From: Myxococcales bacterium 68-20
GTDB lineage: Bacteria; Myxococcota_A; Polyangia; Polyangiales; Polyangiaceae
Direction of reading: 5' to 3'
Length of the DNA: 64,000 nucleotides
NCBI GenBank assembly: GCA_001899635.1
Contig: MKVQ01000004.1
Location: 252,023-316,022 of the forward strand
Part shown: positions 14,163 through 56,034 of the stretch, piece after piece
Position numbering within the stretch: position 1 is the first letter of the stretch
Layout: the number at the start of each line of letters is the position of its first letter
Notes under the pieces: generated by a model
What the model was told of the DNA's origin: nothing
What the model saw: the letters and a program-made list of their open reading frames with translations, nothing else
Databases searched by the model: none
Program-made: the position numbers and the translations under genes

Positions 14163-14176
14163 GACTGTCGTCTCTC

Positions 14177-20776: not shown

Positions 20777-20833
20777 CACCCAAGCCCTAATCCCAGGACG
20801 AGCCCCAGGAGATCCCAAAAAGTCGATCGGCGG

Positions 20834-21880: not shown

Positions 21881-21951
21881 CGCGATCACGCGAGCCTAAC
21901 GCACTCTCCTTCCGCCGTTCGCCTCGTTCGAGACGCGCGCCCGCGCCCACG

Positions 21952-23799: not shown

Positions 23800-23805
23800 C
23801 ACCGT

Positions 23806-28908: not shown

Positions 28909-29045
28909 GGTCCGACACCCGTCGTTTTAACACGCCGAGCGGGGTCGATCCGCACCGTCACGCTAGGATGACCGAGCGCGCGGAAATTCTTTGCTTCAGT
29001 GGAAGGATCACGCGGCCGAGCCGGCCGCGTCACGCTCTCGATCCG

Positions 29046-30373: not shown

Positions 30374-30405
30374 CGCCCCGTCATCCCCCTCCATCGGCGA
30401 TTTGA

Positions 30406-35720: not shown

Positions 35721-37055
<1,335 letters not shown>

Positions 37056-37065
37056 GCGAGCCCTC

Positions 37066-37108
37066 GAGCGCGACGGTCCCGACGAGCACGCTGTACTCGG
37101 TCATGAAC
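37066..37108 (-). pseudogene. Remnant of a Flp-like pilin gene
   Basis: The minus strand reads M-T-E-Y-S-V-L-V-G-T-V-A-L from an ATG at about 37105. The same 43 bases occur, with about two mismatches, in the intact pilin gene at 51.86-51.89 kb. The sequence then diverges and runs into the end of the PP2C-CNB gene. The frame before the ATG is shifted relative to the intact gene. Nothing else was recognised in the 252-base gap 37056-37307. Confidence 0.7.
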
Positions 37109-37307
37109 CGCACCGCCCGCGTGCCGGAGCGACAAGCGCGCATTGCACGTCACGACCAACGAAAGCGCATCGCGTAGATCTCCGCACGGTAGCGTTCGTC
37201 TTCGCGCGGAAGGCGGCCCCGAACGGCGGGAACGACCGAGGTGGTTGCGCTGCTCGAGAAGAGCGGCTGACGCGGCCCCGCCCGGCGCGATCAGGGCCAC
37301 GAGCGGC

Positions 37308-38234
37308 TCACTGCGCGCCCAGAATCTCGACGCAACGCATGGAGAGCAGCTGCAGCAACGTCTGCTCGAGGCCGGACGCCCCCAAGCCCCCGTCGGCGTG
37401 GGGATCGACGGTGACGCGTACGGCCTCGAGCTCGGCCGCGGTAATCCGACCATCACGGTCTCGATCGGCCGCCGCGATATCCTGAAAAAGAAGCCGATCT
37501 CGATCCATGAAGAGCGCTTCGGCGACGACGGGACGAGGGACGACCGTGAGCTCGTTGGCGCGCACGTCGACCCTCGGCTGTTCGGCCGCTGCGTCGCCGA
37601 GGTCGACTCTCCGCAGCGCGAGATCGAGGCGGACCACGACGCCGTCTTTCTCCCCCGTCGCGATGAAGACGACCGACGGCCCAACCTCGCCGGCCCCTCG
37701 GTGTCGGGGGCTGTCGCCTGGACCGGGGCTACTGGGCGACTCCTCGATTGAACCGGAGCCATTGGACGAGCCATCCGCATTCAGACCATCCGCAGGGCGC
37801 CTGAAACGATCGGCGAGGACCGGCGCGACGCCGAGGTCGGACCTGTTTTCGGTATCAGCGAATTCCTGCAGGCGGATGCTGAGGCGGGTCCGACCTACCG
37901 GAATGGCGGGGACGAAGAGGTCCTCGACGCTCGACGCATTCCACAGGTAGCGCCAGGATGAGTAAGAGTAAGAGCTGTCCCCCTCCACGTTGAGGTACGC
38001 CATCAGCGCGATGGCCTCGAAGCGCACGGTCCAGCCATCGTCCGTCACGAACGGCTCGCCGCGTGACGCGGCGGAGGGTTCGGTACGAAACCCCGCAGCG
38101 CCCCTCGGAGGGAGCTCTTCGGCGGCAGGAACGCACGAAGTGGATGCCATCCATGCCACGCATGCGAGCGCGAGCCCGGAAAGACGCGTTCGCCCCAAGA
38201 GCCCCGCGAATCTCGGCGAGCGCCGCCAGCTCAT
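37308..38234 (-). CDS. Lipoprotein with EF-hand-like calcium loop
   Basis: 308 residues; ATG 38234 overlaps the stop of the TonB-dependent receptor (ATGA), so the two are coupled. Lipobox near M-A-S-T-S-C (Cys34). The protein ends with D-R-D-R-D-G-R-I-T-A-A-E-L, a good fit to an EF-hand Ca-binding loop. A middle beta-rich part has A-L-M-A-Y-L-N-V-E-G and a Gly/Ser-rich stretch (G-S-S-N-G-S-G-S). No family was recognised. As the partner of an outer-membrane receptor it may be a surface-exposed or periplasmic substrate-binding protein, perhaps needing calcium. This role is inferred from the operon. Confidence 0.75.
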   Translation of the reverse strand: MSWRRSPRFAGLLGRTRLSGLALACVAWMASTSCVPAAEELPPRGAAGFRTEPSAASRGEPFVTDDGWTVRFEAIALMAYLNVEGDSSYSYSSWRYLWNASSVEDLFVPAIPVGRTRLSIRLQEFADTENRSDLGVAPVLADRFRRPADGLNADGSSNGSGSIEESPSSPGPGDSPRHRGAGEVGPSVVFIATGEKDGVVVRLDLALRRVDLGDAAAEQPRVDVRANELTVVPRPVVAEALFMDRDRLLFQDIAAADRDRDGRITAAELEAVRVTVDPHADGGLGASGLEQTLLQLLSMRCVEILGAQ

Positions 38235-40598
38235 AGTCCCGCCTCCACGCCCAAACTCGGAACGATGATCGGGCCGATGCTCTGATTGGAGCACCCGACG
38301 CCTTCTTCGCAACGAGTCCCGATGACGTCCTTCGAGCCAGTCACGTTGAGTCCTTCGAGGACGAGCGAGATCCATCGCTCCTTCTGCAGCGTCCAGCGCT
38401 TCTCGAGCCGCGCCTCGATCCGGTAGAAGGCCGGCAGTCGTCCACCGCCCGTGAGGCCGTCCGCGCTTTGCTTGGGCCATCCTCCGTAGGTGAGAAGGCG
38501 CGTCGACGCGCGCCATCCGCGCCCGAGGTCGGCCACCCCGCCGATCTGAAACACGTAGGTTCGGTCGAACGGACTCACGGACCTCGGCTCGGTCAGCGTC
38601 GCCCCGATCTCGGCGCGCGCGAGCGTGAAGCTCGAGAACGCCGAGAAGCGCTCGCTCAGCTTGCGGGAGAGAAAGGTCTCGAGGCCATACGCCTGCGTCG
38701 GGGAGCTCGCCGCAATTTGCGTGTCGTTGAGGTCCATGCTCTCGCCGTTTCGCGAGAAGTCGCGGAGGTTGAAGTAGCTATGGTGAAAGCCCACCGCTCT
38801 CAGCGAGAAGCGGAGCGGAAGCTGGAGCTCGGCGCCGGCGCTCTTCTGATATGCGAACGCCAAACCGCCCGGCAACCCCCGGTAGCCGACGGCAGGAACG
38901 GGAATCGCAAATGCGGGCGCCTGAGGGGCAATCCCCATCGCCGCGAGAAATGCCACCTTGCGTGCCACCGGGATGCGCGCGGAAACCCGCGGGCTCGGTC
39001 CGAGTGCGGATTTGCCCGCGCTCGTGAACGCGTCGCCGCGCAGCGTGCCCGTGATCTCCCAGCCCGGGTAGGGGCGGTAGACCGCGGATGCCCACGCGCC
39101 GCTCACCGTCTCCACACGCGGAGCAAAGAGCGTCACGGCCTGTTCATAGTCCCTGGGACGCACGGCGTAGCGGTTGGGCAGATCTCCCGTGTAATTCTCC
39201 GCCTGGAGGTCGACACCGATCTCGACGTCGAGCTTCGGGCCGAGCGGCCACCCGTGGCGACCGCGCACGCCGGTCAATATCGATTGAGCGAAGCGAGACC
39301 CCTCGAGGCGTGAGCGATCGAACCCGAGCGTCGCCGCAACGCGGCTCGTCGAGCCGTCGGCGCCGCGGCGATCGAACCTCATGTCGACGCGATGAAACTC
39401 GGACGCGAAAAACACCTGTTCGACCCCGTCTTCGACCTGCGAGGCGTAGTCGAACGAACCGAACGTGAGGATTGACGCGCGCCAGCGCTCGTCGAGCTGG
39501 TAGCTCGCGCGCGCGTTGTAGTCTCGGTAGTCGATCGTGAGGCCCGGCACGAAGAGCGACAAGAGCCCCGCCGTATACGAATACCGCCCTCCGATTCCCA
39601 CGGTCGCGCGGCCGTTGGCGAACGGCGTCTCGACGTAGGCGCCCGCGTCGTAGAGGCGGATTTGCGCTTCGCCGAGGAGCGCGCCATCGGGATCGCGCGT
39701 CTGCCCGGCGACGATGCCGCCCGCGAATCGACCGAAGCGCGCGGGGAACGCCGCGGGGTGCAGCGACACCTCTTCGAGGAGCGCCGGCTGCACGACGCCC
39801 GGGCCGAGCCCAAAGTGGAAGAGATAGGGGACGCGGACTTCGTCGATGTAGTAGCCGACGGCCGAGGGAGGCGCGCCACGGATGTAGAAATACGGAAGAC
39901 CCGAGACGATCGGAACGACCCCGGGCAAGACGTCGATGGCGCGGAAGGGGTCGCCGAACGCTCCGGGCAGAACGCGCACCTCGGCGCGTCCCAAGCGATG
40001 CTCGGTCGGAGACTGCGTCTCTCGACGACCGCTGACGCGCACCTCCTCGATCTCTTCCCGAGCCGCGGGAGCCGCTTCTGGCGACGCGCCCGGATTCCCG
40101 CCGTCGCCCGCAGCGGCCGGCGAGCCGTCGTCGACGGCGGGAGCATGCGTGTCTTGCGGAGGACTGAACGCGACTACCGCTCGAATGCGCGCGCGAAGTG
40201 GCTTTCCCGCGCGCGACGCAGGCGTGAATCGGTAGGTGCGCACGGCATCGACGGCGGCAGCTTCGAAGGGCCCTCCACTGTCGATGACCTTGACGTCTCC
40301 GACCGTCCCGTCGGCCTCAACGACCAACTCGACGAGTACGGACGCCGACTCCGTTGCGCCTTCCGGATACCGAGGCTCTTCGCGTCGAGACGAGCACCGG
40401 AGGAACGACTTCGTTCGAAGCGGCCGGCGGCGTCGAAGAGGGCGAGGGCGTCGCGGGCGTCGAAGACGACGGCTCGTCGGCGCGCGCGACGCGAACGACA
40501 CCGAGAGGCGGGCTTGCGAGGGCGCCGAAGACGGTGACGGTGGCGGCGCCGCAGACAGCCACCGTGCAAAGCCATCGGGAGTGCTGTCGGGAGCCCAT
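38231..40598 (-). CDS. TonB-dependent receptor with N-terminal TonB-C-like domain, interrupted by a frameshift
   Basis: Translation from ATG 40598 gives a signal peptide (W-L-C-T-V-A-V-C-G-A-A-T-V-T-V-F) and a Pro/Ser linker to V-V-P-P-V-L-V-S-T. The frame then changes at about 40382: one extra base (or two missing) puts the rest, E-E-P-R-Y-P-E-G onward, in another frame. The rest has a TonB C-terminal-like domain (L-V-E-L-V-V-E-A-D-G-T-V-G), a plug (I-D-V-L-P-G-V-V-P, Y-F-Y-I-R-G-A) and a large beta-barrel to the C-terminus. It would import a nutrient or metal complex across the outer membrane. The shift could be a real mutation, programmed, or a sequencing error. Confidence 0.82.
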
Positions 40599-41011
40599 CG
40601 GGAGCGTCGCCGCGCGAGGTCGTGCAGCAGGGCGAACCGGTATAGCATCCCGACGACGTCCACAACGCGCGCTCTACGACTTCCGCCGCCTCAAACTCCG
40701 CAGTAGCGAATCGAGATTCATGCGTTCGTCGCGACGTGGGCTCAGGGCGCGACTGCTTCGCTCCGGAGCTCGATGGGCGCGCGGCCGACTTCACCGAGCG
40801 AATCGCCCATCGAAGACGCCGCTCCCAGCGCGCTTGTCGCCGATACCCGACACCGCGGCGCGCGCCGTGTCGACGGCCGTGAGGGCACGGGCAAGCGCGA
40901 CCACATCGTCTTCGCTCGCCGGTCGACCATCGTGAGCACGGCATCGGCCGCGCTTGGCGCGAGTGCACCCCGCTTGCATCCTTCGTATCGCGAAGCGCTT
41001 CGAGCGCGGGC

Positions 41012-41106
41012 CCGCCGCGTCGACTTCTTCGAGAGCCTCCGCACCGAGCACGAGATCGCGGTGAAGATGCTCTGGCAGTTCCTCGGCGTCCTCGCCGAGC
41101 GCCTCG
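41012..41106 (+). pseudogene. Left fragment of the PP2C-CNB gene 3' end
   Basis: About 95 bases match 36831-36925 of the intact gene with only a few mismatches, reading R-V-D-F-F-E-S-L-R-T-E-H-E-I-A then V-K-M-L-W-Q-F-L-G-V-L-A-E-R-L. The intact gene has I for S and D for E at two of these positions. The match stops at 41106, directly before the module III flank. Confidence 0.85.
41082..41106 (+). repeat. 25-bp direct repeat, left flank of module III
   Basis: Begins CTCGGCGTCCTC and ends GCCGAGCGCCTCG. It matches 50594-50618 at 23 of 25 positions. Both copies share a G (GCCGAG) where the intact PP2C-CNB gene has T (GCCGAT), so they come from the same diverged copy. Confidence 0.8.
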
Positions 41107-41159
41107 GCCGGACCAGCGCCGGTCACCCCTCACCGCCCCCGCCCGCGCGGCGCGCTCCT

Positions 41160-42953
41160 TCACTTCACGACGACGAGCGGCGTGTCGACGAGCTTCCGGA
41201 TGGCCATGCCGCCGGGATAGGCGTAGCTCGCAGCGTGTCCCCACCCCCACAGCGTGGCGGAGAACGCTCCCTCGCTCTTCATGCGCTGAAGGCCGGTAAC
41301 GCACTGCCTATCTCCGAACGTGTCGCCCGGGCCGAAGCCGCGCGACAGGTCCACGCGCGCGTATTCGTATTCGCCGCGCGAGTCGACGGGAAGGAACGTC
41401 GGTAGATTCCCGGCGCACTCGAGCCATACGTCCTTGAATGCGCCGTTCGTCTTCTTTCGCACGATGACGAGCGAGTGCTCGGGGTACGTGCTGTCGGCGT
41501 AGAAGCTGTACGAGTTCAGAAACTGCCCACCGGGGACGACGTTGACGAAGTCCGGATCTCCCCGTAGTGCATACGGCGGTGAGTCCGGCGGCTCACCGCC
41601 CGAGCCGGACATGTGGATCCCGAGATAGAACGGATGTTCGGCGTCGCGCGATCGGACGACGAACGGCTCGTCTGCGTTCGCACGGAAAACCGCCAGCTCC
41701 CCGGCAGCCATCGTCAGCGGAGCTCCGGCGGGCTTGACGGGATCGTAGTCGAGCTCGGTCCCGTCGCGTGCCGCCACCATGCGATACCAGACGATCTCCT
41801 CCATTCCCGGCACGCGCGCTCGATAGCCCACGCCGACATACTCCGATCCCCACTGCTCGTAGGGCGGAACCTGCTGGGCGAGGATGTCACAGGTCCCCAC
41901 CCTCGACGGGAGAAACGAGCAGCTGTTCCCGCCGACGGTCACAGTCGGTTTGTTCGAGAGTAGGAGGCTGCCGGTGAGCTCTTGGGACTGGACGATCTGC
42001 GCGAATTGCCCCTTCGAGAGCATGATCTTCGTTGGTGCACCGGCAGCACCTCCCTTGAAACCGATGCCGTTCGAGACGTCTACCTTCCCGATGAGCGTCA
42101 GCTCGGTATCGTCCTCCGACGCGTAGATCTGCGTCGCAGGCTGACCAAAGTTGTCCTCCCAGCCGTCGACGATGACATGTTCCTTCGCCCACGCGCTCAC
42201 CGGAAAGACGAGGGTCGCGGACGGGACATAGCTCGCCGCGCCGCCGTAGGGAAAAATCGACGTAAGCGCGACAGGGACATTGCTCTTCAAGTGAAAAGCA
42301 TCGCCAATGGCGGAGCCGAAGGTAGCGAAGTCCTCTTGCACCGCAGGCTTCACGTCGAGGGGACAGCTTATGTAGAATAGCTTCTCCGTGATCGTGCGCT
42401 GCTTCGTCGGGTCACGATCCGAGACGAAGAGAATGGCGCTCTCGCCGGGGGCGATCGGGCCGTTGAGAGGCTCGAGAGCCGTGCTCCCCGAAACCGCACG
42501 ATAGAGCGCGTGCGTGATATCGAGCTCCTTGCCGGCGCGCTCCAACGAAAGCGTCACCGGCTGATTCGAGCTGTTGACGACGAACGTCGCGTGGCACGAC
42601 TGCAGGACGAAGGGGTCGAAGCGTGGACTGGCGAAGTAGAAGTCGCACCCGTTGGAGCTTCGGTCCGCGGCCGCAGCCGCGCACGGCTCCTGGCACTTCG
42701 CCGCGCCGCATGCAAGCTGGTCGGGACACGTCTCCACGACCTCGCCCGTGCATGACCGCACGATCGACCGACCGTCGAGCGAGCACTGGAGGAGGCAAGG
42801 CGGCAGCTCGCCGGCATCATCCCCAACCGCCAGCTCCCCCGGCGGTGTGAAACCTCCTCGATCGCTGGCGCACGCGGCGATGGCGGAGGCGGCGAAGCTC
42901 GCGCCCAGCGCGGCGAACGCGATCTTTGAGGAGAACTCGGCGCGTCGTCTCAT
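41160..42953 (-). CDS. IgGFc-binding-like lipoprotein, module III
   Basis: 597 residues; ATG 42953 overlaps the RCC1 stop (ATGA). Lipobox Cys28 (A-S-A-I-A-A-C-A-S). The Cys-rich neck is kept (C-L-L-Q-C-S-L-D-G, C-P-D-Q-L-A-C-G-A-A-K-C) but the large domain differs clearly from modules I and II (C-D-F-Y-F-A-S-P-R-F in place of C-S-F-W-T-L-P). Shared landmarks remain: S-I-F-P-Y-G-G-A-A-S-Y, E-D-D-T-E-L-T, Q-W-G-S-E-Y, G-D-P-D-F-V-N-V-V-P, Y-A-Y-P-G-G-M. It may bind a different partner while keeping the same fold. Confidence 0.85.
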   Translation of the reverse strand: MRRRAEFSSKIAFAALGASFAASAIAACASDRGGFTPPGELAVGDDAGELPPCLLQCSLDGRSIVRSCTGEVVETCPDQLACGAAKCQEPCAAAAADRSSNGCDFYFASPRFDPFVLQSCHATFVVNSSNQPVTLSLERAGKELDITHALYRAVSGSTALEPLNGPIAPGESAILFVSDRDPTKQRTITEKLFYISCPLDVKPAVQEDFATFGSAIGDAFHLKSNVPVALTSIFPYGGAASYVPSATLVFPVSAWAKEHVIVDGWEDNFGQPATQIYASEDDTELTLIGKVDVSNGIGFKGGAAGAPTKIMLSKGQFAQIVQSQELTGSLLLSNKPTVTVGGNSCSFLPSRVGTCDILAQQVPPYEQWGSEYVGVGYRARVPGMEEIVWYRMVAARDGTELDYDPVKPAGAPLTMAAGELAVFRANADEPFVVRSRDAEHPFYLGIHMSGSGGEPPDSPPYALRGDPDFVNVVPGGQFLNSYSFYADSTYPEHSLVIVRKKTNGAFKDVWLECAGNLPTFLPVDSRGEYEYARVDLSRGFGPGDTFGDRQCVTGLQRMKSEGAFSATLWGWGHAASYAYPGGMAIRKLVDTPLVVVK

Positions 42954-44287
42954 GGCAGCTTCACCTCCACGGGAGTCACCACCGAGCCCCTCGGCAATCC
43001 GGCGCCGAGCTGCCCATACGAGTTGGTTCCCCAGCAATACACTTTGCCGTTGGTCAAAATGGCACACGTCGAATAGGGCATGATCTTCACCTCGGCTGCC
43101 GACGCCGGAAGCTCCTGAACCCGCACAGCAGCAAGGGCAAACTCCTTGGTGCCGTCGCCTGCCTGACCGGCGTTGTTGAGGCCCCAGCAATAGAGCTCGC
43201 CGCTCACCGACGTCGCGCACCAGCGGTGTCTTTCGTAGACAGTGCGGCCGCTGTCATCTACCAACCGCGACGCGCTCGTCGCAATGCGAGTGATGGGCTC
43301 GGGCGTATCGACCGCGGCAGGCAGCGCGCGTTGGAGTCGATGGGGGTTCTGGGGCAGGCCCACCCGGTCCGCCTCTCCCCAACACCACCCAACACCGTTC
43401 GCGACGGCGCACGACTCCCTATCGATGGTGTCGATCATCGTGACGTGTTCGAGCGAGATGGGACTCGGCCATGGATCGACGTCGAACGGCGTCGCTCGTC
43501 CAACACCAGGGGTGTACCCCCAGCTCAAGATCCGGCCGTCTTCGTACAATGCGAATGCGCTGGCACCGAGCGTCACGCTCTTCACTCCAGCCGGAAGCTC
43601 GACCTTGCGCGGGGCGACGAAAGCGCCCACGACGTCCGGTCCAATCAGGGAGAGGCCATTCGATCCCCAGCAGACGACACTCTTGTCGATCAGAATCGCG
43701 CACGCCGTTGCCAGGCTGACGGCGACCTTCTCGGCAGGCCCCGGGAGGTTGATACGTACCGGGCTCGCCGTGATACTGGTGGCCGAAACCTCATTCTCGA
43801 TGAACGGACCTCTCCCCCAGCACCAGACGACGCCGTCGCTGGTGACTGCACACGTGTGGTCAATGGACGTGATCCCGGTGAGGCCCGGTACACGAACGGC
43901 AACTGCGCTCGCCGGCCCACTGGTTTCGCCTTGTCCAAGCTGGCCCGCCGAGTTGCCCCCCCAGCAGGCAACCGTGCCGTCGGACAGGAGCGCGCAATAT
44001 CCCTCCTCGTCGAAGGCCCCCCCCGGCGTCGTCGAGAGCGCAACGGCGCACGGAGGACTTTCGCACTGGATCGGCAGGGGCGCGGCGTCGACGACGGCAG
44101 CGTCCTTCGTTCCCGCGTCGACGACCCCTTCTGCGATGGCGCTGTCGTTCGACGAGTCGCTCGAAGCGTCGAATGCCTCCTCCGTCCCGAGGGGTCGACC
44201 GCTGCTCGAACAACTCGTCGGGGAGACGGCGAGCACCGGAAGGCTCGCGAGGAGTGCCCGTTCAAGGAGTCGTCTTGTGGTACGCAT
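42950..44287 (-). CDS. RCC1-repeat propeller lipoprotein, module III
   Basis: 445 residues from ATG 44287 behind GGAG. It overlaps the end of protein A by 26 bases, unlike the four-base overlaps in the other modules. Lipobox Cys26 (S-P-T-S-C-S-S-S-G). Seven repeats are visible, from V-A-C-W-G-G-N-S-A-G-Q-L-G to V-Y-C-W-G-T-N-S-Y-G-Q-L-G, but several in the middle have lost the L-G ending (V-W-C-W-G-R-G-P, I-L-S-W-G-Y-T-P). Blade number is thus kept despite sequence drift. Confidence 0.86.
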   Translation of the reverse strand: MRTTRRLLERALLASLPVLAVSPTSCSSSGRPLGTEEAFDASSDSSNDSAIAEGVVDAGTKDAAVVDAAPLPIQCESPPCAVALSTTPGGAFDEEGYCALLSDGTVACWGGNSAGQLGQGETSGPASAVAVRVPGLTGITSIDHTCAVTSDGVVWCWGRGPFIENEVSATSITASPVRINLPGPAEKVAVSLATACAILIDKSVVCWGSNGLSLIGPDVVGAFVAPRKVELPAGVKSVTLGASAFALYEDGRILSWGYTPGVGRATPFDVDPWPSPISLEHVTMIDTIDRESCAVANGVGWCWGEADRVGLPQNPHRLQRALPAAVDTPEPITRIATSASRLVDDSGRTVYERHRWCATSVSGELYCWGLNNAGQAGDGTKEFALAAVRVQELPASAAEVKIMPYSTCAILTNGKVYCWGTNSYGQLGAGLPRGSVVTPVEVKLP

Positions 44288-45563
44288 AGCGGGCTCCGAT
44301 TGCCCAGAGGTTTTGATTCGAGGTTCCGCGAATCCGATGCAGGGGCGCTCCGACCGGTGCGCCGTCACGTGAGATGGTGGAGACAGCGAAGGCGCCGTCC
44401 TCTGTTCCCCGAAGGACCAGGCCCAACGAGGTGAACCAGGTGTCGCCGTTCACCCGCCATACCGAGCTCGCGACCTGGGGGGCGATGCTCGATGCATTCT
44501 TGATGGGGACGGCCGAGTGGTCGACGGAATAGCCGCCATCCTCGACACGGACCTTCATGAGGCTGACGTGGTCGAGGTTCCACGGATTCATGGCATCCTG
44601 GAGCCCGATGTATTCGGTCGGGGAAATGGCCTGGAGCTCCGTGAGCCAGCCCGCGAATCCCTCGCCAATCCGCACCGTCCCCGCCCGCACGCCGCATGAA
44701 TCGGTGACGATACCATCGGCAACTCGAATCCACGCGTCGGCGGTCTTGCGAACGAGCAGGGGGCAGGCATAGCGACTGCGATCGCGAGCTCCGGAGAACC
44801 AGATGTCGTCCGGTCCCGCTCCGGCTGCCGCAGTGAAGAAGATATGCTCATTGGGCTCCGCGTCGTTGGCGAGGTATACCGAGGACCAGGTGCCGTGGAG
44901 CGGATCACGCCTGAAGATGGCATTGCTGTAGTACGCATACACATCGTCGACGCCGACGCCCCAAACTCCGAGCGTCACTTGCGTCATCCCCGTTGTGACG
45001 TAATAGGGCCTCCCGTGATCGTCAGGAGGCAAATGCCCGAGCACGTTGTCTGGGAGGACATGGCGTGTCCAACTCCACGCGCTCTCCGACGCATTTGGTC
45101 GCTTGCCGCGATAAACGAACGAGGGACTGACCGTGAAGTACACCTCATCCTCGTTCGGCGCGTAGATACGACCGGCGAACGTCTCGACTCCGACGACGTT
45201 CTGGCTTGCGTCGTCGATGTATTGCCACGCGTCCGTGGACTTCTGCCACTCGAGCACCTTCACGCCTTGGGTGCGGCTCTCGGCGATGGCGAACGCGCGA
45301 TCCTCGAACGGCCAGATGTCACGAAAGTCGAGGTCCTCGTCAGGGAAGGGAGTGACGCACCAGCCAGACGCGCTGCACCTGGGCAGGCTCGTATCGGGCA
45401 CGTCGCCATCCGATACAGGCGCGGAGGCATCCGGCGCGTCAGCGTCGAGGACCGTCGACGTGGGCGGCTCGGGTGCCGGCGCTGCCTGATCTTCCGAGCT
45501 CGCGCAGGCGGCGCTGATGGCCAAGGGCGCGGTAGCGACAGCGAGATGAATCCACGATCTCAC
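44262..45563 (-). CDS. VWGSG-repeat propeller lipoprotein A, module III
   Basis: 433 residues. GTG start 45563 overlaps the stop of protein B (GTGA), with GGAGGGAAG upstream. Lipobox Cys20 (A-I-S-A-A-C-A-S-S). The Cys pair is C-S-A-S-G-W-C-V-T-P-F-P. The repeats are much weaker than in modules I and II: one finds V-W-G-V-G-V-D-D-V-Y-A-Y, G-A-G-P-D-D-I-W-F-S-G and N-Q-N-L-W-A-I-G-A-R-Y-A-Y-H, but few full W-G-S-G motifs. It is the most diverged gene of the three A copies, assigned mainly by position, Cys pair and ending. Confidence 0.7.
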   Translation of the reverse strand: MRSWIHLAVATAPLAISAACASSEDQAAPAPEPPTSTVLDADAPDASAPVSDGDVPDTSLPRCSASGWCVTPFPDEDLDFRDIWPFEDRAFAIAESRTQGVKVLEWQKSTDAWQYIDDASQNVVGVETFAGRIYAPNEDEVYFTVSPSFVYRGKRPNASESAWSWTRHVLPDNVLGHLPPDDHGRPYYVTTGMTQVTLGVWGVGVDDVYAYYSNAIFRRDPLHGTWSSVYLANDAEPNEHIFFTAAAGAGPDDIWFSGARDRSRYACPLLVRKTADAWIRVADGIVTDSCGVRAGTVRIGEGFAGWLTELQAISPTEYIGLQDAMNPWNLDHVSLMKVRVEDGGYSVDHSAVPIKNASSIAPQVASSVWRVNGDTWFTSLGLVLRGTEDGAFAVSTISRDGAPVGAPLHRIRGTSNQNLWAIGARYAYHKTTP

Positions 45564-46762
45564 GGCTTCCCTCCAAGCGAAACGAGGACACCTTGGCCGG
45601 CGATCCAGACCTTCCCGGGAGAAGGAACCCAGACGTGCTCGAGGCGCGGGCGTCTTTGGCCGAGGCCCGCGATCTTCACGCGCTTCCATGACGCGCCGTC
45701 GTAGTGAAAGACCGTGGCCGCATCGCCGACGATCCAGATGTCTTTCGGCGATGAGCCCGCGATCGCGAGGAGGTGCTGCTTCGTCGGCACCTCTTCGTAG
45801 ATCTCCCAGAACCGCGCGTCGCCGCGGTAACGGCGCACGGTGCCGGTCGAGCCGACTGCCCAGACGTCGTTCGACGAGGCCGCCCACACCCCCTCGAGCG
45901 CCATCATCGTCAGAGCGTTGAAGGTGGTGAACGTTGGGGTATCGGATTCGGCGTTCGTGATCCGACACGCGGCGCCTCTTGTCCCGACAGCCCAGAGCTC
46001 GTCCGCGGAGAGGCCAAACAGCCCGTGAACGTTGGTGAGCACACTGTTGAAGGGCATCTCGATGGCCGTGAACGTTCCGGTCTCGGCGTCGCGGCGCATT
46101 CGCCACAGGCCACCACCGTAACTTGGCGAATCTACGCCGACCCAAAGCGACGCGGCATTGGGGTGCGCCCACGTCGCCATCACCCGTGCCCTGCTGTTCC
46201 ACGTACCGGAGAGCGTCGCTGCTCCGACGAACGACCAACCGTCGGCAGAGGTGCTGGCGTCAGCGCCAGCGTCGAGCCCACGAGTATAGAGTCGGCTCGG
46301 TTCGTCGAATGCTATTTCGGCATTACCGTAGAGCCAAAGTCCCCAAATCGATTGTTGAGTTCCCAGCGAAGATGGCCGCCATGAGGTGCCGTCGAAGTGC
46401 CCGAGCTGACCGACCGTGCCCGCCACCCAGACATCGGTCGGTGAGCGCGCGGCGAGCGCGGTGATATGGGTCCGGAGGTCGAGTCCGAGATTGCCGGACG
46501 GATCCGACGGATTGAAGAGTCCGCCGGCACAAAGCGCATCGTCGGTGCATTCCGCCGGGTAGAATTCGCAGTCTTCGCCGACGCAAACCGCACCGTCGGC
46601 GTCATCCGAATCGGATCCTGCGTCGGTCGCGGGAATGGGCGCATTCGCCTCGTCCGGCGGAGGCGCGCCGACCTCGCTATCGGTGGCGCACGCTGCCAGG
46701 AGCGCCGCGGCGTGCAGAGAGCCTGCCGCGCCGGCGACGACGAAGAGCCATCGCGTTTTCAT
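45560..46762 (-). CDS. VWGSG-repeat propeller lipoprotein B, module III
   Basis: 400 residues; ATG 46762 overlaps the Cys-rich gene stop (ATGA). Lipobox Cys25 (A-L-L-A-A-C-A-T-D). A four-Cys neck (C-V-G-E-D-C-E, C-T-D-D-A-L-C) replaces the simple Cys pair. Repeats: A-R-S-P-T-D-V-W-V-A-G, L-S-A-D-E-L-W-A-V-G, A-S-S-N-D-V-W-A-V-G, S-S-P-K-D-I-W-I-V-G, with H-F-D-G-T-S-W and H-Y-D-G-A-S-W. The W-G-S-G half of the motif is often lost while the D-V-W-A-V-G half is kept. Confidence 0.76.
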   Translation of the reverse strand: MKTRWLFVVAGAAGSLHAAALLAACATDSEVGAPPPDEANAPIPATDAGSDSDDADGAVCVGEDCEFYPAECTDDALCAGGLFNPSDPSGNLGLDLRTHITALAARSPTDVWVAGTVGQLGHFDGTSWRPSSLGTQQSIWGLWLYGNAEIAFDEPSRLYTRGLDAGADASTSADGWSFVGAATLSGTWNSRARVMATWAHPNAASLWVGVDSPSYGGGLWRMRRDAETGTFTAIEMPFNSVLTNVHGLFGLSADELWAVGTRGAACRITNAESDTPTFTTFNALTMMALEGVWAASSNDVWAVGSTGTVRRYRGDARFWEIYEEVPTKQHLLAIAGSSPKDIWIVGDAATVFHYDGASWKRVKIAGLGQRRPRLEHVWVPSPGKVWIAGQGVLVSLGGKP

Positions 46763-47958
46763 CGGGTCGGTCCTCCGCCGTCCTCGAGCACGTCGCACGG
46801 CTCGACCAAACACCGGCCGTCGACGCATGCTTGCCCTGCAATCCCGTCACAAACGTTGCCGCAAGCGCCGCAGTTTTTCGGATCGGCGGCGATGTTTGTT
46901 TCGCAATCGTCCCGGCGGTCGCCGTTGCAATCGGCCCAGCCCTGCATGCAGTTCATCACGCACTTGCCGTACACACAGGATTCGGACGCATTCTGCAGGC
47001 CGGTTGTATGGCAACTTTGTCCGCAGGCGCCGCAATTGTAGTTGTCGAAGGAGAGGTCCTTGCACTCTCCCTTTTCCAATCCAGTGTAGTCGACTCCGCC
47101 GCAGAAGGTAAGGCCCTCTGCACACATGCATACCGGCATCCGCAAGGGGTCGGGAGTGAGCCGGCACTTGGCGCCGCCCGTGCATTTGACTCCGCAGAGC
47201 CCGCAGTTCTCGTCGGTCAGGACGCTTTCCTCACAACCATTTGCGCTATCGGAGTCGCAATTTCCGTATCCCCATTTACACTTGAGCGTTCCACATGCAC
47301 TGTCCCAACAACCGGAGTACGTATTCGGCGGAAGCTCGCCACCATCGCCCTCGGGCGGACATTTGTTGTTGCACGCGCCGCAATTGTCGTCGTCGTACCG
47401 CGGATCAACGCAGGGCGCGACGGGCGAGGCGCAGTAGATCTCGCCCGTCCTGCACCCACATCCCCAGCCGTAGATCATTCGGTCGATGCACGGCTTGTCC
47501 GCCGGGCATTTGAGCCCGCAGACTCCGCAGTGATCGTTGTTCGGGAGCATCGTCTCGCAACCGTTGTCGGGGATCCCGTCGCAATCGAGCGAGCCCTGCC
47601 CGGTGCAAATCATCTGGCAGCGACCTTCGACGCAGATGTACTCCTCGAGGCGCCCGGAGGCCGGACAAGCGTTGCCGCACTCACCGCAGTTGTTCGGATC
47701 CGTCCGCAGGTCGACGTCGCAAAGGAACAGGGAGTTCGGACACGTGGTGTGGCCGGGCGGGCACCGGTCCGAAGGGCAGTACGATCGGACCTCGTCTGCG
47801 TCCGGACGGCTCACTCCGGCATCCGGATCGACAAACGAGGTCGGTGGCGTCGGCGGCTCGGGCGCTCCATCCGCGATCAGGACCGATTGGGAGCACGCGA
47901 CGACCGACGCGAACGAAATGAAGACGAATACCGTGAGCGAAGTGTATCTGCGGAGCAT
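46759..47958 (-). CDS. Stig1-like Cys-rich lipoprotein, module III
   Basis: 399 residues from ATG 47958 with GAGGAAAG upstream. Lipobox Cys22 (A-S-V-V-A-C-S-Q-S). Cys-rich units N-C-G-E-C-G-N-A-C, H-C-G-V-C-G-L-K-C, N-C-G-A-C-N-N-K-C, with W-G-Y-G-N-C-D and W-A-D-C-N-G-D. Only 27 bases separate it from the regulator gene, against 55 and 137 in modules I and II, so an internal promoter is less likely here. Parts look less GC-rich: 47041-47100 has 33 G/C of 60, while a matching stretch of the module II gene (28381-28440) has 44 of 60. Confidence 0.82.
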   Translation of the reverse strand: MLRRYTSLTVFVFISFASVVACSQSVLIADGAPEPPTPPTSFVDPDAGVSRPDADEVRSYCPSDRCPPGHTTCPNSLFLCDVDLRTDPNNCGECGNACPASGRLEEYICVEGRCQMICTGQGSLDCDGIPDNGCETMLPNNDHCGVCGLKCPADKPCIDRMIYGWGCGCRTGEIYCASPVAPCVDPRYDDDNCGACNNKCPPEGDGGELPPNTYSGCWDSACGTLKCKWGYGNCDSDSANGCEESVLTDENCGLCGVKCTGGAKCRLTPDPLRMPVCMCAEGLTFCGGVDYTGLEKGECKDLSFDNYNCGACGQSCHTTGLQNASESCVYGKCVMNCMQGWADCNGDRRDDCETNIAADPKNCGACGNVCDGIAGQACVDGRCLVEPCDVLEDGGGPTR

Positions 47959-47985
47959 CGCTTTCCTCGTCCGTGAGGCGAGAGA

Positions 47986-48786
47986 TCAGTGGTCGGTCTT
48001 GGAGGGCAGAGTGGGCGAGCCCGACCCGCCGAGCGCACGGTCGAGGCGGGCGCCGTAGGGGGTGCGCGGATAGAGCGCCCGCAGCGCATCTGCGCGGGCC
48101 TTCGCCTCCGGCATTCGATTGAGGCGCGCGAGAGCTTCGACCGCGACCACCTCGCGCTCCTGCACGAGCTCTCCCGCCGGGAACGCGCGGGCGTGTTCCT
48201 GCACGAGCGCCAGCGAGCGGGACGGATCCGACGCGAGCGCGTCTTGCGCCCGCCGGACGAGAGCAAACTCACTCTCGCGCACGGGCGCGGTGCCCGCATC
48301 CCCCGACGCCTGCGCCAACGCGGACGGCGCACGGCGCGGCGCGACGCTACGCGGAGAGGCGCTCGCGATGACGAGGGCGCTGGCCGTCGAGGGGAGCGCT
48401 TCGACCGGGATCGACGACGTCTCTACTGGGGCCGGCGATGGCGGCTCCGGCGGAGAGGCCGGCGGTAGAGCCACCTGCTCCGGGACGTGGCTCGGCGCGG
48501 GCGAAGGCCCCTCTGTGCTCCACGCTTGCCATCCGAGGATGGCGGCGCCAACCCCGACGAGGGCGAGGACGCCCAGCTTCGTACTGGAGCCTGGAGCGAG
48601 GAGGCTGGCTCGGGTAGTCGCCGAATGCGCGGCGGCGGCGTAGGCGCTCGTCGCCGCGAGCCGCTTCGCCATCTGCTCGGTCGTCCGCGAGCTCAGCCTT
48701 CGGGTCCGTGAAGCGCGCACCAGTCTCGCGAGCTCCGGATCCCCGCCCTCGCGGAGGCGAGGCGGATCGGTATCGTCGAATTTCAT
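47986..48786 (-). CDS. Single-pass membrane protein, likely ECF regulator, module III
   Basis: 266 residues; ATG 48786 overlaps the ECF stop (ATGA), as in the other modules. The cytosolic N-terminus (about 1-70) differs in sequence (K-F-D-D-T-D-P-P-R-L-R-E-G) but is again Arg-rich. The membrane segment is L-G-V-L-A-L-V-G-V-G-A-A-I-L-G-W, about 71-86. Then come a Pro-rich stalk and a helical end (L-A-L-V-Q-E-H-A-R-A-F-P-A-G-E-L). The A-x-x-F-x-x-G-x-L pattern in the tail is shared with modules I and II. Anti-sigma role inferred from gene order and topology. Confidence 0.68.
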   Translation of the reverse strand: MKFDDTDPPRLREGGDPELARLVRASRTRRLSSRTTEQMAKRLAATSAYAAAAHSATTRASLLAPGSSTKLGVLALVGVGAAILGWQAWSTEGPSPAPSHVPEQVALPPASPPEPPSPAPVETSSIPVEALPSTASALVIASASPRSVAPRRAPSALAQASGDAGTAPVRESEFALVRRAQDALASDPSRSLALVQEHARAFPAGELVQEREVVAVEALARLNRMPEAKARADALRALYPRTPYGARLDRALGGSGSPTLPSKTDH

Positions 48787-49310
48787 CGTTCCTCGGAGAG
48801 CAGGCGGGCAAGCTCACGACGGGCGGCGTAAAGACGTGCGTACGCAGCAGCCGGCTGACAGCCGACGGCTTCGGCGACCTCGCGCATCGTCATCTCCTCG
48901 ATCTCGTAGAGGACGAAGACGGTTCGCTTGTCTTCGTCGAGGGAAGCGAGCGCGCGATCGAGCCGCTCCGCGTCGAGGCGGACGGCCGGGTCGGCCTCGA
49001 TTCCGATCTCGGGCATCGGGTCGACAGCAAGCTCGTGGCGATGATGACCGCGCCGCCGGTACGTGGACGCGCAGCGCCGCGCGATCGCGAAGAGCCAACC
49101 GCGCGAGTGCTCCCCGTCCCACGTCGCGTAGCGACGATAGGCGACGAGGAAAACCTCGTGCATCTGGTCCCGGAGATCGGCTTCGCGGACACCGAGGTGG
49201 AGGAGTGACCGCCACACGTAGTCGGCGTGCGCCAGAAAGAACTCCTCGAGACCGGGCCGCGAGACCGCCACGACGGGGGATTCCTTTACGACGCCGAGTG
49301 CCGCGGTCAC
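48783..49310 (-). CDS. ECF-type RNA polymerase sigma factor, module III
   Basis: About 175 residues from GTG 49310; GTG 49271, which has a better-spaced AAAGGA, is an alternative. Region 2: Y-V-W-R-S-L-L-H-L-G-V-R-E-A-D-L-R-D-Q-M-H-E-V-F, W-L-F-A-I-A-R-R-C-A. Region 4: L-D-E-D-K-R-T-V-F-V-L-Y-E-I-E-E-M-T-M and A-A-A-Y-A-R-L-Y-A-A-R-R-E-L. The recognition helix clearly differs from modules I and II (A-A-A-Y-A-R-L-Y against G-T-V-A-S-R-L-R), so this factor probably reads another promoter. Confidence 0.9.
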   Translation of the reverse strand: MTAALGVVKESPVVAVSRPGLEEFFLAHADYVWRSLLHLGVREADLRDQMHEVFLVAYRRYATWDGEHSRGWLFAIARRCASTYRRRGHHRHELAVDPMPEIGIEADPAVRLDAERLDRALASLDEDKRTVFVLYEIEEMTMREVAEAVGCQPAAAYARLYAARRELARLLSEER

Positions 49311-49378
49311 TCCCCTTCTATGCGGGGACCTCGCGATCTTCGAAAATGCGGGTTCACTTTTTGGCTCGCCTCGGTCGA

Positions 49379-50365
49379 TCAGGGAAATTCCCACCCGAAA
49401 CCGACGGCGAGCCGTCCTTCGACCGACGCTGGGCGGTGCACATGGTAGAGCTTGCCGCGGTCGCTCACCATGAAGTCGTCGGCGTTGAGCGGCACGCGGA
49501 CGTCGGGCAGCACCTCGAGGCGCAGGGCCGGGCCGAGCGGAATGCGCCCGAGCATGCCGGCCGCGATGACACCGACGAAGCGCGTCGCGTCATAGGCAGA
49601 GCGAAAGCCCGTCGTGGACGCGACGGCGATCCCGCCACGCGCTTCGACGATCGGAATGAGCTCGAGCCAGCGCGCACGCATCACGCGAAAGCCGACGAGG
49701 GCGGCCGCATCGACGAAGCGGAACTTCGCCTCCGCGCCCAGCACCCGCACGGACTGCGACGTCTCGAAGCTGCCCTCCACGCCGACGACGACGGGTGAGA
49801 GCGTCGCGGTCCATCGAAGGGCTCCGCCGAATCCGATGTTCGGAAGGAGCCCCACGCTCGCGACCGCAGACGCGCCGAGCGTCATCGGTACATGCATGCG
49901 CGAACGCTCCGGCGTAGCTGGAGGCAGCGGACGTCCGACACGAGCTGGCGGGGGCGGAGGCGCGGACCGAGCTTCGGGCTCGCTAGCGGGCTCCGGCGCC
50001 GAAGCGTGGGGACGGGCGACCGCGATCATCATCGCGAGCACGAGGGCCGTCGATTCCACGATGTCCTCGCAGCGCGGCTCGTCGAAGCGGACCCGGCGTT
50101 CACCGAGATCGGCACCTCTCGTGTCCTTCAGCCGGAACTCGGCGGCGATCACGCCGTCCTCGACCGTGACGGTGCCGTGCACGTAAAGCTCGGGGGGCGC
50201 GCTCGAGCTGCTCTCTCCGAGCCGCGCGAGCGACGCCGTGACGATGCGCTCACCCGAGGGGCATCCTTCCGGCGCCGACCATTCGAGCTCGAAGGGAGCG
50301 GCCTTCGCGAAGCGCGCATGCATCAAGGAGGTGCAGACGACGAGAGCCGCCACCGTGGCCCTCAT
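49379..50365 (-). CDS. Exported protein with possible beta-barrel end, first gene of module III
   Basis: 328 residues from ATG 50365, which has AGGA at good spacing; ATG 50389 would add eight residues. Signal peptide cut after R-F-A-K-A. The Cys pair is kept (E-G-C-P-S-G-E and E-P-R-C-E-D-I-V), the Pro-rich linker is present (P-P-P-P-P-A-R-V-G-R), and the C-terminal Gly/aromatic strands end L-A-V-G-F-G-W-E-F-P. Sequence similarity to the module I and II proteins is low apart from these landmarks. Its gene is 68 bases upstream of the chosen ECF start. Confidence 0.68.
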   Translation of the reverse strand: MRATVAALVVCTSLMHARFAKAAPFELEWSAPEGCPSGERIVTASLARLGESSSSAPPELYVHGTVTVEDGVIAAEFRLKDTRGADLGERRVRFDEPRCEDIVESTALVLAMMIAVARPHASAPEPASEPEARSAPPPPPARVGRPLPPATPERSRMHVPMTLGASAVASVGLLPNIGFGGALRWTATLSPVVVGVEGSFETSQSVRVLGAEAKFRFVDAAALVGFRVMRARWLELIPIVEARGGIAVASTTGFRSAYDATRFVGVIAAGMLGRIPLGPALRLEVLPDVRVPLNADDFMVSDRGKLYHVHRPASVEGRLAVGFGWEFP

Positions 50366-50593
50366 CTTGGGCAGTCCTGATGCACGCATGCCCTCGAGCC
50401 CGCTACTCTATGCGAGTCGCGCCCAAAGCGGTCACGTCGCGCACGCGAACGGATCGCGAGCTCGACCGTACGTGCCCCGCGCACCCATCACGCCGGCCAC
50501 GGCCGTCAACGCGGAGCCTTATCGTTTTCCTGATTCCATGTGATCCCACGATCCCGAGGTGTAAGGCCCGACCCCGGCTGGCGACGTGGATGC

Positions 50594-50618
50594 CTCGGCG
50601 TGCTAGCCGAGCGCCTCG
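50594..50618 (+). repeat. 25-bp direct repeat, right flank of module III
   Basis: Partner of 41082-41106 (23 of 25 identical; differences at repeat positions 9 and 12). The two copies are 9,512 bp apart and bracket module III exactly. Confidence 0.8.
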
Positions 50619-50637
50619 ACGCGACCTCCAGCGAGCT
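50594..50637 (+). pseudogene. Right fragment of the PP2C-CNB gene 3' end
   Basis: 44 bases match 36900-36943 of the intact gene with three mismatches, reading L-G-V-L-A-E-R-L-D-A-T-S-S-E-L. The first 25 bases repeat the end of the left fragment at 41082-41106; the remainder continues the gene where the left fragment stops. Confidence 0.85.
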
Positions 50638-50727
50638 CGGGTTGCTCGATCAGGGCTTTTTGTGGATCGTCTCGCGAGCCGGCGGCTCAGGGCTGGTAGG
50701 AGGGGGCGCCCGGCGAAAGCCGCGGCG

Positions 50728-51603
50728 CTACCGCATACGACGACGTCGGCGAAGCGAAACGAGCCCGAGTAGTCCGAACGCACCGACGACGGCTTTGAGC
50801 TCGGTCGGGAGCGGTGGAGCGAAGGTGCATCCTCCGGCGTCGTTGGCCGGAGCGGCGTCGTTGGCCGGAGCGGCTTCGTCGTTGGGGCAGCGGACGTCGA
50901 CCACCGCCGTGTTGGTCGCGATCTCCGGCGCATCGAACTCTCTCGGAGCTCCGACCAACTGCACCGTGTGGCGCCCCTCCCCGATGACCGCGTCGGGGTG
51001 GCAGACCGCGACGCTCAACGGACGTTGAGCCACTTCGGATACCCTTTCGTACCAGCGGAAAGCGACACCGTCGATGAAGCTCGTCGCCCTGTAGAGGTCT
51101 GCCCACGGCGCGGCGCCGGGATCCGGCGTCAACAGGAGGTCGATGACCAATACGCCATCGGCCTCCGACTTCCGTATCGGCGATGCGGCGACAGAGCCGA
51201 GCGCGTTCGGAAAGGGAACCTCCGGGCTCACGGTGAACCGGTCGACAGCGAGTCCGCAGGACGAGGGGTACTCGAAGCGGTGGATTGCTCCGGCGATCAG
51301 CGAGGTGGGTACGATGCGAAAGTGGCGTACCCGTTCATCGACGTCCTCGGGACGCTCGGGCGTCAGCGTGACCGGCACGTCGACGTCGCCGAGCTCTGCG
51401 TCCTCACGGATCAGACGAATCTCGGGAGGACCAGATACGTTGACGAGGCGGAGGGGAGTATTCGCAGGAAGACGCGAGCCCATCGGCCCAACATGCGGCC
51501 CGCAGTAGACGGTGGCTCGGGCGGGCACCGACCATGAGATCCACGCGGCCGCCAAGGTGACGAGGGCCGGGAGCCAGAGGCGACGACGCTTCGCTGTGCG
51601 CAC
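50728..51603 (-). CDS. Exported protein with MYXO-CTERM-like tail
   Basis: 291 residues from GTG 51603, preceded by GAGGGGAG. Signal peptide (W-L-P-A-L-V-T-L-A-A-A-W-I-S-W-S ... A-R-A). The mature part is beta-rich with four Cys residues. Near the end lies a short repeat (A-P-A-N-D-A-A-P-A-N-D-A), then G-G-C-T-F, a hydrophobic segment (V-V-G-A-F-G-L-L-G-L-V-S-L) and a basic end R-R-R-R-R. That Cys-hydrophobic-Arg pattern is typical of MYXO-CTERM surface sorting. No family is recognised for the main domain. It is separate from the Flp operon end (153-base gap). Confidence 0.78.
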   Translation of the reverse strand: MRTAKRRRLWLPALVTLAAAWISWSVPARATVYCGPHVGPMGSRLPANTPLRLVNVSGPPEIRLIREDAELGDVDVPVTLTPERPEDVDERVRHFRIVPTSLIAGAIHRFEYPSSCGLAVDRFTVSPEVPFPNALGSVAASPIRKSEADGVLVIDLLLTPDPGAAPWADLYRATSFIDGVAFRWYERVSEVAQRPLSVAVCHPDAVIGEGRHTVQLVGAPREFDAPEIATNTAVVDVRCPNDEAAPANDAAPANDAGGCTFAPPLPTELKAVVGAFGLLGLVSLRRRRRMR

Positions 51604-51756
51604 GCTCCCCTCGTAGCGGGGCACCGTCGCGGCGGCAACGCTGCGAACGCGTAGTCTCGTACGACGCGCTCCGACGTGACGTGTCGACCGCCCCAGTAGG
51701 AGCGGTGGCAGCACCGGCGGGCGGCGCGATCGAGCGGCGGGCGTCGACGAGCGCGA

Positions 51757-51927
51757 TCACGGGAACGGATAGAGGATGAGCCCGCGAACGTGCTCGAAGC
51801 TGTTCACGAACGCGATGCCGAGCCCGACGAGCGCGACGGAGGCCCCGAGCGCGACGCTCCCGACGAGCACGCTGTACTCCGTCATGACCGCGCCACGCAC
51901 GCGCCTCGGTCGCGACGGGCGGCTCAT
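51757..51927 (-). CDS. Flp-like type IVb pilin
   Basis: 56 residues; ATG 51927 overlaps the FHA gene stop (ATGA). A short basic leader (S-R-P-S-R-P-R-R-V-R-G) is followed by A-V-M-T-E-Y-S-V-L-V-G and a hydrophobic helix to the C-terminus (V-A-L-V-G-L-G-I-A-F-V-N-S-F). The Gly before the cut and Glu at +5 of the mature end fit class IVb (Flp) prepilins cut by the A24 peptidase encoded upstream in the same operon. It would polymerise into thin adhesive pili. It is the last gene of the operon. Confidence 0.85.
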   Translation of the reverse strand: MSRPSRPRRVRGAVMTEYSVLVGSVALGASVALVGLGIAFVNSFEHVRGLILYPFP

Positions 51928-55131: not shown

Positions 55132-56034
55132 TCAGATGTTCTGCTGCGCGAGCTTGATGGCCATCGGAGCGACGATGAGGATCAGCACCGCGAGGAAGAG
55201 GAGGACGAGCGGTCCGATCATCGAGACGCCTGCCCTAGCTGCCGCTTCCTCGCCGAGGACGCTCCGCTTCTGTCGCGAGACCTCGGCCTGGATCTGGAGA
55301 ACGTCGGCGACGGGATTGCCGCGGAGCTCGGCCTGCACGACCGACCCGACGAACTCCTGCACCATCGGGATCGGCGCGCGCGCCGCGAGCTCCTCGAGGG
55401 CCTCGCGTCGCGTGCGGCCGAGCGAGAGGCTCACGAGGATGAGCGAGAGCTCCTCGATCAGCGGATCGTCGGGCGTCCCCGAGCGCTCCACCATCTGCCG
55501 GAGGGCGCCCGGAAAATCGAGCCCCGCCCCCATCCCTAGCGCAAGGAGGTCGATCGCGGGAGGCAGTCTCCGACCGATTGCCTGGAGCCGAGCGGCCGCG
55601 GCGCTCGAGAGGGTCATGAACGGCGCGAGCACACCGAACGCCCCGACGCCGATGACGAACATCGGCCCGATCGCGACGATCTGGTTGGCGAGCCCACCGA
55701 CGACGAGCCCGACGAGCCCGGTAAGGACGCTCAGCCCGACGAGCTCTTCGGCGTAGAGTCCGAGGTAGTCGCCGGCCATGCTCATCTGTCGGTCGATCGA
55801 GCGAAGGAGTTGCTGAGAAACGAACCGGCTCACGCAACCGCCCATCCAGCGGAGCACCGGCTCGACGTGGGCCCACCCATTGCCCTTGGCCAGGGCGCGC
55901 TGGCGCTTGAGCCCGCGAATGCCCGTCCGCGCCGCGGGCGGCATCGGCGCCGTGCCCGCGAGCGCACCGAAGACGAAGAGGCTGACGAACACCGCACCGA
56001 CGAGGGCCGAGCGGAGAAGCGCGAGGGTGCTCAT
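55132..56034 (-). CDS. tadC: TadC-like inner-membrane platform protein
   Basis: 300 residues; ATG 56034 overlaps the TadB stop (ATGA). Membrane segments lie at the N-terminus, around residues 100-145 (two close together) and at the C-terminus (I-G-P-L-V-L-L-F-L-A-V-L-I-L-I-V-A). The cytosolic part between them is a type II secretion F domain (L-D-L-L-A-L-G-M-G-A-G-L-D-F-P-G-A-L, A-E-L-R-G-N-P-V). With TadB it forms the inner-membrane base on which the assembly ATPase would act. Confidence 0.86.
   Translation of the reverse strand: MSTLALLRSALVGAVFVSLFVFGALAGTAPMPPAARTGIRGLKRQRALAKGNGWAHVEPVLRWMGGCVSRFVSQQLLRSIDRQMSMAGDYLGLYAEELVGLSVLTGLVGLVVGGLANQIVAIGPMFVIGVGAFGVLAPFMTLSSAAAARLQAIGRRLPPAIDLLALGMGAGLDFPGALRQMVERSGTPDDPLIEELSLILVSLSLGRTRREALEELAARAPIPMVQEFVGSVVQAELRGNPVADVLQIQAEVSRQKRSVLGEEAAARAGVSMIGPLVLLFLAVLILIVAPMAIKLAQQNI

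Follow-up and report, generated by a model that had tools for sequence, protein, structure and literature searches.

The window analysed here is a 64,000-nucleotide stretch of the Myxococcales bacterium 68-20 genome (contig MKVQ01000004.1, positions 252,023 to 316,022 of the forward strand). It contains module III (41160-50389), an operon with an extracytoplasmic function (ECF) sigma factor gene and a cassette of surface-protein genes, which lies between two fragments of a gene for a PP2C phosphatase with a cyclic-nucleotide-binding domain (PP2C-CNB). The genome comprises 11.9 Mb in 52 contigs and may be a metagenome assembly (contamination estimate, 4.2%); all parts of the locus are on one 627-kb contig. 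The compared genomes are denoted by G numbers; G006 and G003 belong to the same genus, whose named relatives are Labilithrix and other Polyangiaceae/Myxococcales metagenome genomes. The features that define the junctions are as follows.

35721-37055, plus strand: intact PP2C-CNB gene (Pfam PP2C_2 and cNMP_binding), source of both fragments
37058-37125, minus strand: fragment of a pilin-like gene (about 15 codons including the start codon, with 21 bp of upstream sequence)
41012-41114, plus strand: left PP2C-CNB fragment, 94% identical over 103 bp to 36830-36932
50593-50638, plus strand: right PP2C-CNB fragment, 93.5% identical over 46 bp to 36899-36944
51757-51885, minus strand: intact small pilin-like gene (43 codons with the stop, 42-residue product), which directly follows PP2C-CNB in G006

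Both fragments represent the 3' end of the PP2C-CNB gene, as an earlier note on this DNA had claimed, and are oriented as the intact gene; they lie 46 bp (left) and 204 bp (right) from module III. The first 95 bp of the left fragment differ from the intact gene at 3 positions. The fragments overlap at gene positions 36899-36924 (26 bp, 24 identical; 34 bp at 85% when extended), which is within one base of the 25 bp with 23 identities given in the note. At the codon where the note had seen a shared G against T, both fragments have GAG and the intact gene has GAT; among 16 other aligned orthologues, 15 have GAT or GAC and one (336R46) has GAG. This shared codon, together with the contiguous coverage of 36830-36944, fits the proposal that the fragments derive from one interrupted copy.

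A search of the genome with the left fragment (E≤0.001) gave two matches only, namely itself and the intact gene. The right fragment, queried with its flanks, gave itself, the intact gene at E 7.5e-13, and, near 1e-3, two weaker matches that included the left fragment. Chance is excluded because of this three-way relation of the fragments to the gene; a chance match was ruled out by these genome-wide searches, and the fear that the repeat might be common in the genome proved unfounded. The gene itself has a match at E≤1e-40 in all 38 genomes searched, including this one, although in some of them the match covers the PP2C domain only. A perfect 24-bp palindrome lies within the gene at 36279-36302.

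A third scrap, missed in the earlier note, directly follows the PP2C-CNB stop codon. It reads MTEYSVLVGTVALEG and is 85-87% identical to 51839-51905, the 5' part of the pilin-like gene. The name "pilin-like" reflects sequence resemblance and neighbours (a T2SSF protein at 55132-56856), with no family match behind it.

In G006, the PP2C-CNB and pilin-like genes are adjacent. In this comparison (BLAST rows above 60 or 70 bits were considered at the locus, depending on the comparison), positions 37072 and 51754 of the window corresponded to positions 13270 and 13335 of the compared G006 stretch, 65 bases apart. G006 therefore lacks the whole of 37073-51753, and the extra DNA amounts to 14.7 kb rather than the 9.5 kb of the earlier note. 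It consists of a TonB-receptor block, then module III with the left and right fragments on either side, and finally about 1.1 kb that carries another gene. The overlap sequence had one strong match in G006, in its PP2C gene; this genome holds a third copy in its intact gene, which makes the test for a single copy in an empty relative less clean at module III. The G003 contig ends inside the PP2C gene, at codon 345 (G003:C337), just before the duplicated part, and the repeat perhaps exists in G003 too.

At the sites where the PP2C genes of this genome and G006 differ, the left fragment agrees with this genome at 6 of 8 and with G006 at 1 of 8; the corresponding values for the right fragment are 4 of 6 and 1 of 6. 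The fragments thus carry mostly the bases of their own lineage, suggesting that they arose there after the split from G006 and are most likely younger than it. Module III without the fragments, which would have spoken against the note, was not found in relatives: among the matches listed, none of the 11 other genomes of the genus had a match to module III that exceeded about 3.3 kb.

The contents of the inserted DNA and the two paralogous modules of the window are listed below; all genes are on the minus strand.

37126-41011, strand not assigned: inserted 3.9-kb block, absent from G006 at the PP2C site, with one partial match among the module segments of this genome
37308-38516, minus strand: putative protein with a weak Pfam match to EF-hand
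38231-40663, minus strand: TonB_C/plug receptor gene (Pfam)
41160-47958, minus strand: surface cassette of module III (Pfam; gene order kept across the modules of this genome), comprising the next five genes
41160-43220, minus strand: IgGFc_binding open reading frame (ORF)
42950-44368, minus strand: RCC1 gene
about 44369-45560, minus strand: unnamed gene
45560-46828, minus strand: BNR/YCF48-like gene (YCF48 match below the curated cut-off)
46759-47958, minus strand: STIG1-like gene
47986-50389, minus strand: regulatory half of module III, its ECF gene paralogous to those of modules I and II, comprising the next three genes
47986-48786, minus strand: gene for an anti-sigma-like protein (no family match; the anti-sigma role is a guess from position)
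48783-49394, minus strand: ECF sigma factor gene (Sigma70_r4_2 / sigma70-ECF)
49379-50389, minus strand: "first" gene (no family match)
50639-51754, minus strand: about 1.1 kb absent from G006 and matching no other module segment of this genome
50728-51714, minus strand: putative exported protein gene (no Pfam or NCBIfam match)
12327-21889, minus strand: module I, a paralogue of module III
21970-31470, minus strand: module II, a paralogue of module III

Within the genus, 37056-38300 had no match longer than about 160 bp outside this genome. The closest paralogue of module III in the genome is 71% identical over 6.7 kb. Modules evolve fast: module II and the module at the same site in G006 are 72-73% identical. 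Over 21970-31470 the value against G006:C2 is about 72%, and that of the neighbouring PP2C gene is about 92%.

Module III belongs to a large family. PF17517 (IgGFc_binding) matched at least 91 times in this genome (91 of 144 candidates scored), 46 times in G003, 17 times in G006, and 0-9 times in the other nine genomes of the genus. In an order-level sample of 115 genomes including this one, 94 had a match; this genome had at least 18 and the next highest had 16 among the matches listed, which did not include G003 and G006. The expansion of this operon is extreme and lineage-specific. Analysis of 1.73 Mb around the loci reduced 100 IgGFc features to 97 module loci, each defined by an IgGFc match of at least 1200 bp plus an ECF or STIG match. 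Nearly all of the 97 share the order first, ECF, anti-sigma-like, STIG1-like, BNR-like, unnamed, RCC1, and IgGFc, although not every gene was detected at each locus.

Subsequently, the flanks of the 97 modules were compared. A direct repeat scoring 28 or more flanks 12 modules, against 0.62 expected when left and right flanks of different modules were paired (cross-pairing); inverted repeats, the second control, gave none, and at low scores they were at chance level (13 against 12 at score 20). With the flanks held close (450 bp on the left and 800-2200 bp beyond the ECF gene), the count was 7 against 0.17, again with no inverted case. For the 67 modules with no other module gene within 3 kb, the wide test gave 5 against 0.32 and the close test 2 against 0.0. 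Five of the 12 repeats, from 51 to 209 bp long and unrelated in sequence, represent the 3' part of a host gene that is still intact next to the module. Named by contig, with host genes according to our reading of the translations, the repeats with a tabulated identity are as follows.

C18: 209 bp, 69%, 3' part of a histidine kinase gene
C13: 167 bp, 84%, 3' part of a MocR-type regulator gene
C23: 51 bp, 98%, 3' part of a lipoprotein-like gene
C33: 67 bp, 91%, 3' part of an L,D-transpeptidase-like gene
C48: 125 bp, 89%, 3' part of another histidine kinase gene
C19: 110 bp, 97%, no host gene identified
C48 #55: 123 bp, 88%, no host gene identified
C49: 76 bp, 91%, no host gene identified

At C33, a further repeat of 163 bp adjoins, representing the end of an MFS-like gene without an intact copy in the segment. 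No host gene was identified for the repeats of C33 #83 and C4 either. Those of C16 and C48 #56 are better explained otherwise than as host-gene scars: C16 adjoins part of the following module, and the C48 #56 repeat is a kinase motif located 3.3 kb away. Both the module ends and the repeat lengths vary from case to case. The earlier note had suggested looking for other modules flanked by the sequence found at module III; other modules do have flanking repeats, but those of the five host-gene cases are of unrelated host sequence and variable length.

At C18, the flanks are contiguous in the relatives, overlapping by 147 bp in G006 and 134 bp in G003, and 9.5 kb stands between them in this genome. 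These 134-147 bp are single-copy in the relatives and double here; the C18 module is a clean insertion that duplicated its target. At C23, both G006 and G003 are empty, and the insert here is 14.3 kb, that is, the module plus about 4.6 kb. The right flanks of C13 and C33 and the left flank of C48 #65 were not placed in the relatives, and for C19 and C48 #55 the queried flank had no strong match in the relatives among the matches listed. Eight more modules with repeat scores of 21 or less were chosen by hand among the 31 solitary modules in which a first gene had been detected, one of the eight (C6) having a perfect 21-bp repeat, and their joined flanks were compared with G006 and G003. A site was called empty when the flank matches were spaced 0.4-3.0 kb apart, too short for a module. 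By this spacing, G006 was empty at 5 sites, had 8.3 kb of unassigned content at 1, and was not placed at 2; G003 was empty at 3, had 8.3 kb at 1, and was not placed at 4. Late insertion thus accounts for most of the testable modules, and many left no clear duplication.

From the fragments, their order and orientation, the empty sites, and the recurrence of flanking repeats, we infer the order of steps, the junction duplication, the repair mechanism, and the donor in the following history. In the ancestral state, as in G006, the PP2C-CNB gene would have faced the small pilin-like gene about 85 bp away. A junction of about 450 bp (the PP2C 3' end, the spacer, and the pilin-like 5' part) would then have been duplicated with or during insertion of the TonB block, leaving both outer genes intact in the order PP2C, pilin-like fragment, block, PP2C fragment, and pilin-like gene. 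Finally, module III would have entered the PP2C fragment with a target duplication of about 26-34 bp, which would have produced the left and right fragments. The process could be capture at a staggered break, or template-switch copying that re-enters the target slightly behind its exit point. We put the probability at roughly 0.7 that module III is a dispersed operon copy inserted after the G006 split, with a long variable target duplication and probably by break repair, into a partial junction copy. The insertion with target duplication proposed in the earlier note is thus the best reading, given the empty site in G006 and the sister event at C18, but the fixed 9.5-kb unit is not retained. 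The uninterrupted second PP2C copy that it expected was not found; the interrupted copy was most likely a short PP2C/pilin-like junction duplicate, because the pilin-like fragment at 37058-37125 sits in the matching place. Two matches to the break-joining protein Ku in the genome permit end joining and prove nothing.

Several observations weigh against this history. The overlap between the left and right fragments is by itself weak evidence, since its score of 24 is reached by 15 of the 97 modules (1.9 expected by cross-pairing); module III accordingly stands outside the twelve, and its case is the PP2C match. No strong flanking repeat was found at 85 of the 97 modules, and 7 of the 12 repeats are not clearly host-gene scars. 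The empty site at the PP2C locus rests on one genome, G006, and of a second PP2C copy the 5' 370 codons are missing. The segment 50639-51754 must have needed a further event. Moreover, the donor was not seen and is not settled, as the best paralogue in the genome is 71% identical, against 93-97% between the fragments and the PP2C-CNB gene.

The locus might instead be debris, that is, a decayed tandem duplicate of the PP2C and pilin-like genes in which module III, the TonB block, and the 1.1-kb gene happened to land, so that the overlap would be no target duplication. The order of the pilin-like and PP2C fragments is indeed that expected of a tandem duplication, three unrelated inserts lie within one gap, and the overlap alone is short and weak. 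Such a history, however, gives no account of why the fragments overlap rather than abut, nor of why other modules show a similar pattern involving unrelated host genes, and we regard it as rather unlikely. Loss from G006 of an ancestral module has little chance of being correct: direct repeats allow precise excision and the junction was seen in G006 only, but the own-lineage bases of the fragments place their origin after the split, and in the 3-23 kb beyond the PP2C stop in G005, G009, G004, G007, G011, and G001 nothing apart from PP2C matched module III at more than 70 bits.

Direct repeats around insertions at the 3' ends of genes are reminiscent of integrase islands, and the five host-gene cases with repeats from 3' ends would suit an attachment site there. 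A classical mobile element, either a transposon or such an island, is nevertheless very improbable. The repeats differ in sequence and in length (51-209 bp in the host-gene cases and 26-34 bp at module III), the module ends vary, and no transposase or integrase match was obtained in Pfam and NCBIfam scans of the module III ORFs; a transposon or integrase is therefore disfavoured. The repeats do not show the constant short target duplication of a transposon, the left fragment sequence of module III occurs only here and in PP2C, no tRNA that could provide an attachment site lies in the window, and no common non-coding motif was seen at the cassette ends in a search that was not exhaustive.

Insertion with long and variable target duplication is known for restriction-modification genes of Helicobacter pylori, as described by Nobusato et al. 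(2000, Gene 259:99; cited in PMC1643837 and PMC3031569). As in that pattern, a gene block here is bordered by a long direct repeat that derives from the target and varies in length, recognised through related genomes; the insert is absent from a relative and the C18 repeat is single-copy there. Unlike those accounts, the cargo is a 9-kb ECF-sigma/surface operon instead of restriction-modification genes, and many copies of one operon family occur in one genome. Module insertion thus appears to follow the Helicobacter pattern with a new cargo. Repair-mediated duplication by capture of nearby DNA, outlined for vertebrates (PMC2671141), likewise leaves short duplications at break-repair sites; that system is eukaryotic and the duplicate is the insert, whereas here the duplicate flanks a large insert. 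Gene-family expansion is described for large myxobacterial genomes such as that of Sorangium So0157-2 (PMC3696898), which resembles this genome in size and expansion; here, in contrast, one defined operon has junction scars and empty sites.

The spread of operons without recognisable mobility genes is normally hard to see afterwards, and several junction scars in one genome combined with empty sites in relatives make it readable. The scar pattern suggests how an operon family of about 100 members spread through the genome. The host gene survives by duplication of its 3' end, and 3'-end duplications may be enriched since the gene stays intact.

Next, the histories of the two module halves were compared. 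In six close module pairs (84-88%), the alignment is confined to 6.8-7.0 kb, beginning at the IgGFc stop and ending about 70-180 bp into the STIG gene; no nucleotide match was obtained between the ECF halves of these pairs, whose ECF proteins share 32-43% identity. Over all pairs, identities correlated within the cassette (r 0.85-0.94) and between ECF and first (0.72), and hardly between cassette and ECF (r 0.04-0.06) or cassette and first (0.13-0.21). Genes that were undetected or had two or more stops were left out, so that of 97 loci these values used 88 for IgG, 94 for RCC1, 89 for BNR, 97 for STIG, 89 for ECF, and 47 for first. With normalised scores, r was 0.91-0.95 within the cassette, 0.84 for ECF-first, 0.71 for anti-sigma-first, and 0.62 for ECF-anti-sigma. 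Between the halves it was 0.065-0.147, small but mostly above permutation: IgG-ECF 0.065 (reached by 2.2% of 2000 permutations), STIG-ECF 0.073 (1.6%), STIG-anti-sigma 0.076 (6.25%), IgG-first 0.147 (0.25%), and STIG-first 0.13 (0.45%). The closest ECF pairs tend toward above-median cassettes.

Where this genome and G006 or G003 have a module at the same site, the alignment runs across both halves (22510-31434 at 72.5%; 12310-19655 and 19944-21908 at 74-77%). The halves, which align together at the same site and are nearly unrelated in history across loci, thus part on dispersal or by exchange between loci, and the cassettes seem to have been reassorted among loci. A site-specific recombination motif at the cassette ends was considered and rejected: the words enriched at the IgGFc end were coding and three-base-phased, and those at the STIG end were mostly intragenic. 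No shared non-coding motif stood out in this enriched-word search, which was not exhaustive.

It is possible, at somewhat less than even odds, that the family is a dispersed, reassorting surface repertoire of about 97 loci with their own ECF sigma halves, among which a 6.8-kb cassette of exported proteins is swapped by recombination, with new loci seeded by target-duplicating insertion. If so, it would act like a bacterial variable-surface-antigen system; the lipoprotein-like domains and the ECF gene suggest a function in surface recognition, adhesion, or predation. That the cassettes and sigma factors have almost fully uncoupled histories is a direct and testable sign that cassettes are exchanged among dozens of loci; surface variation on this scale would be new in myxobacteria. 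A literature search found no paper joining "IgGFc-binding" and "myxobacteria", and among the papers listed nothing on this operon or on a reassorting repertoire of such scale.

Some modules depart from the common arrangement. In one (G000:C48:171501-191000, L237), the first gene stands after IgGFc rather than before ECF, and a 125-bp direct repeat flanks the module; a circular intermediate is not claimed for this permuted order, as copying from a tandem array would produce it equally well. In two others (G000:C44:187501-207000, L251; G000:C23:234001-253500, L231), the ECF part is opposite in orientation to the cassette.

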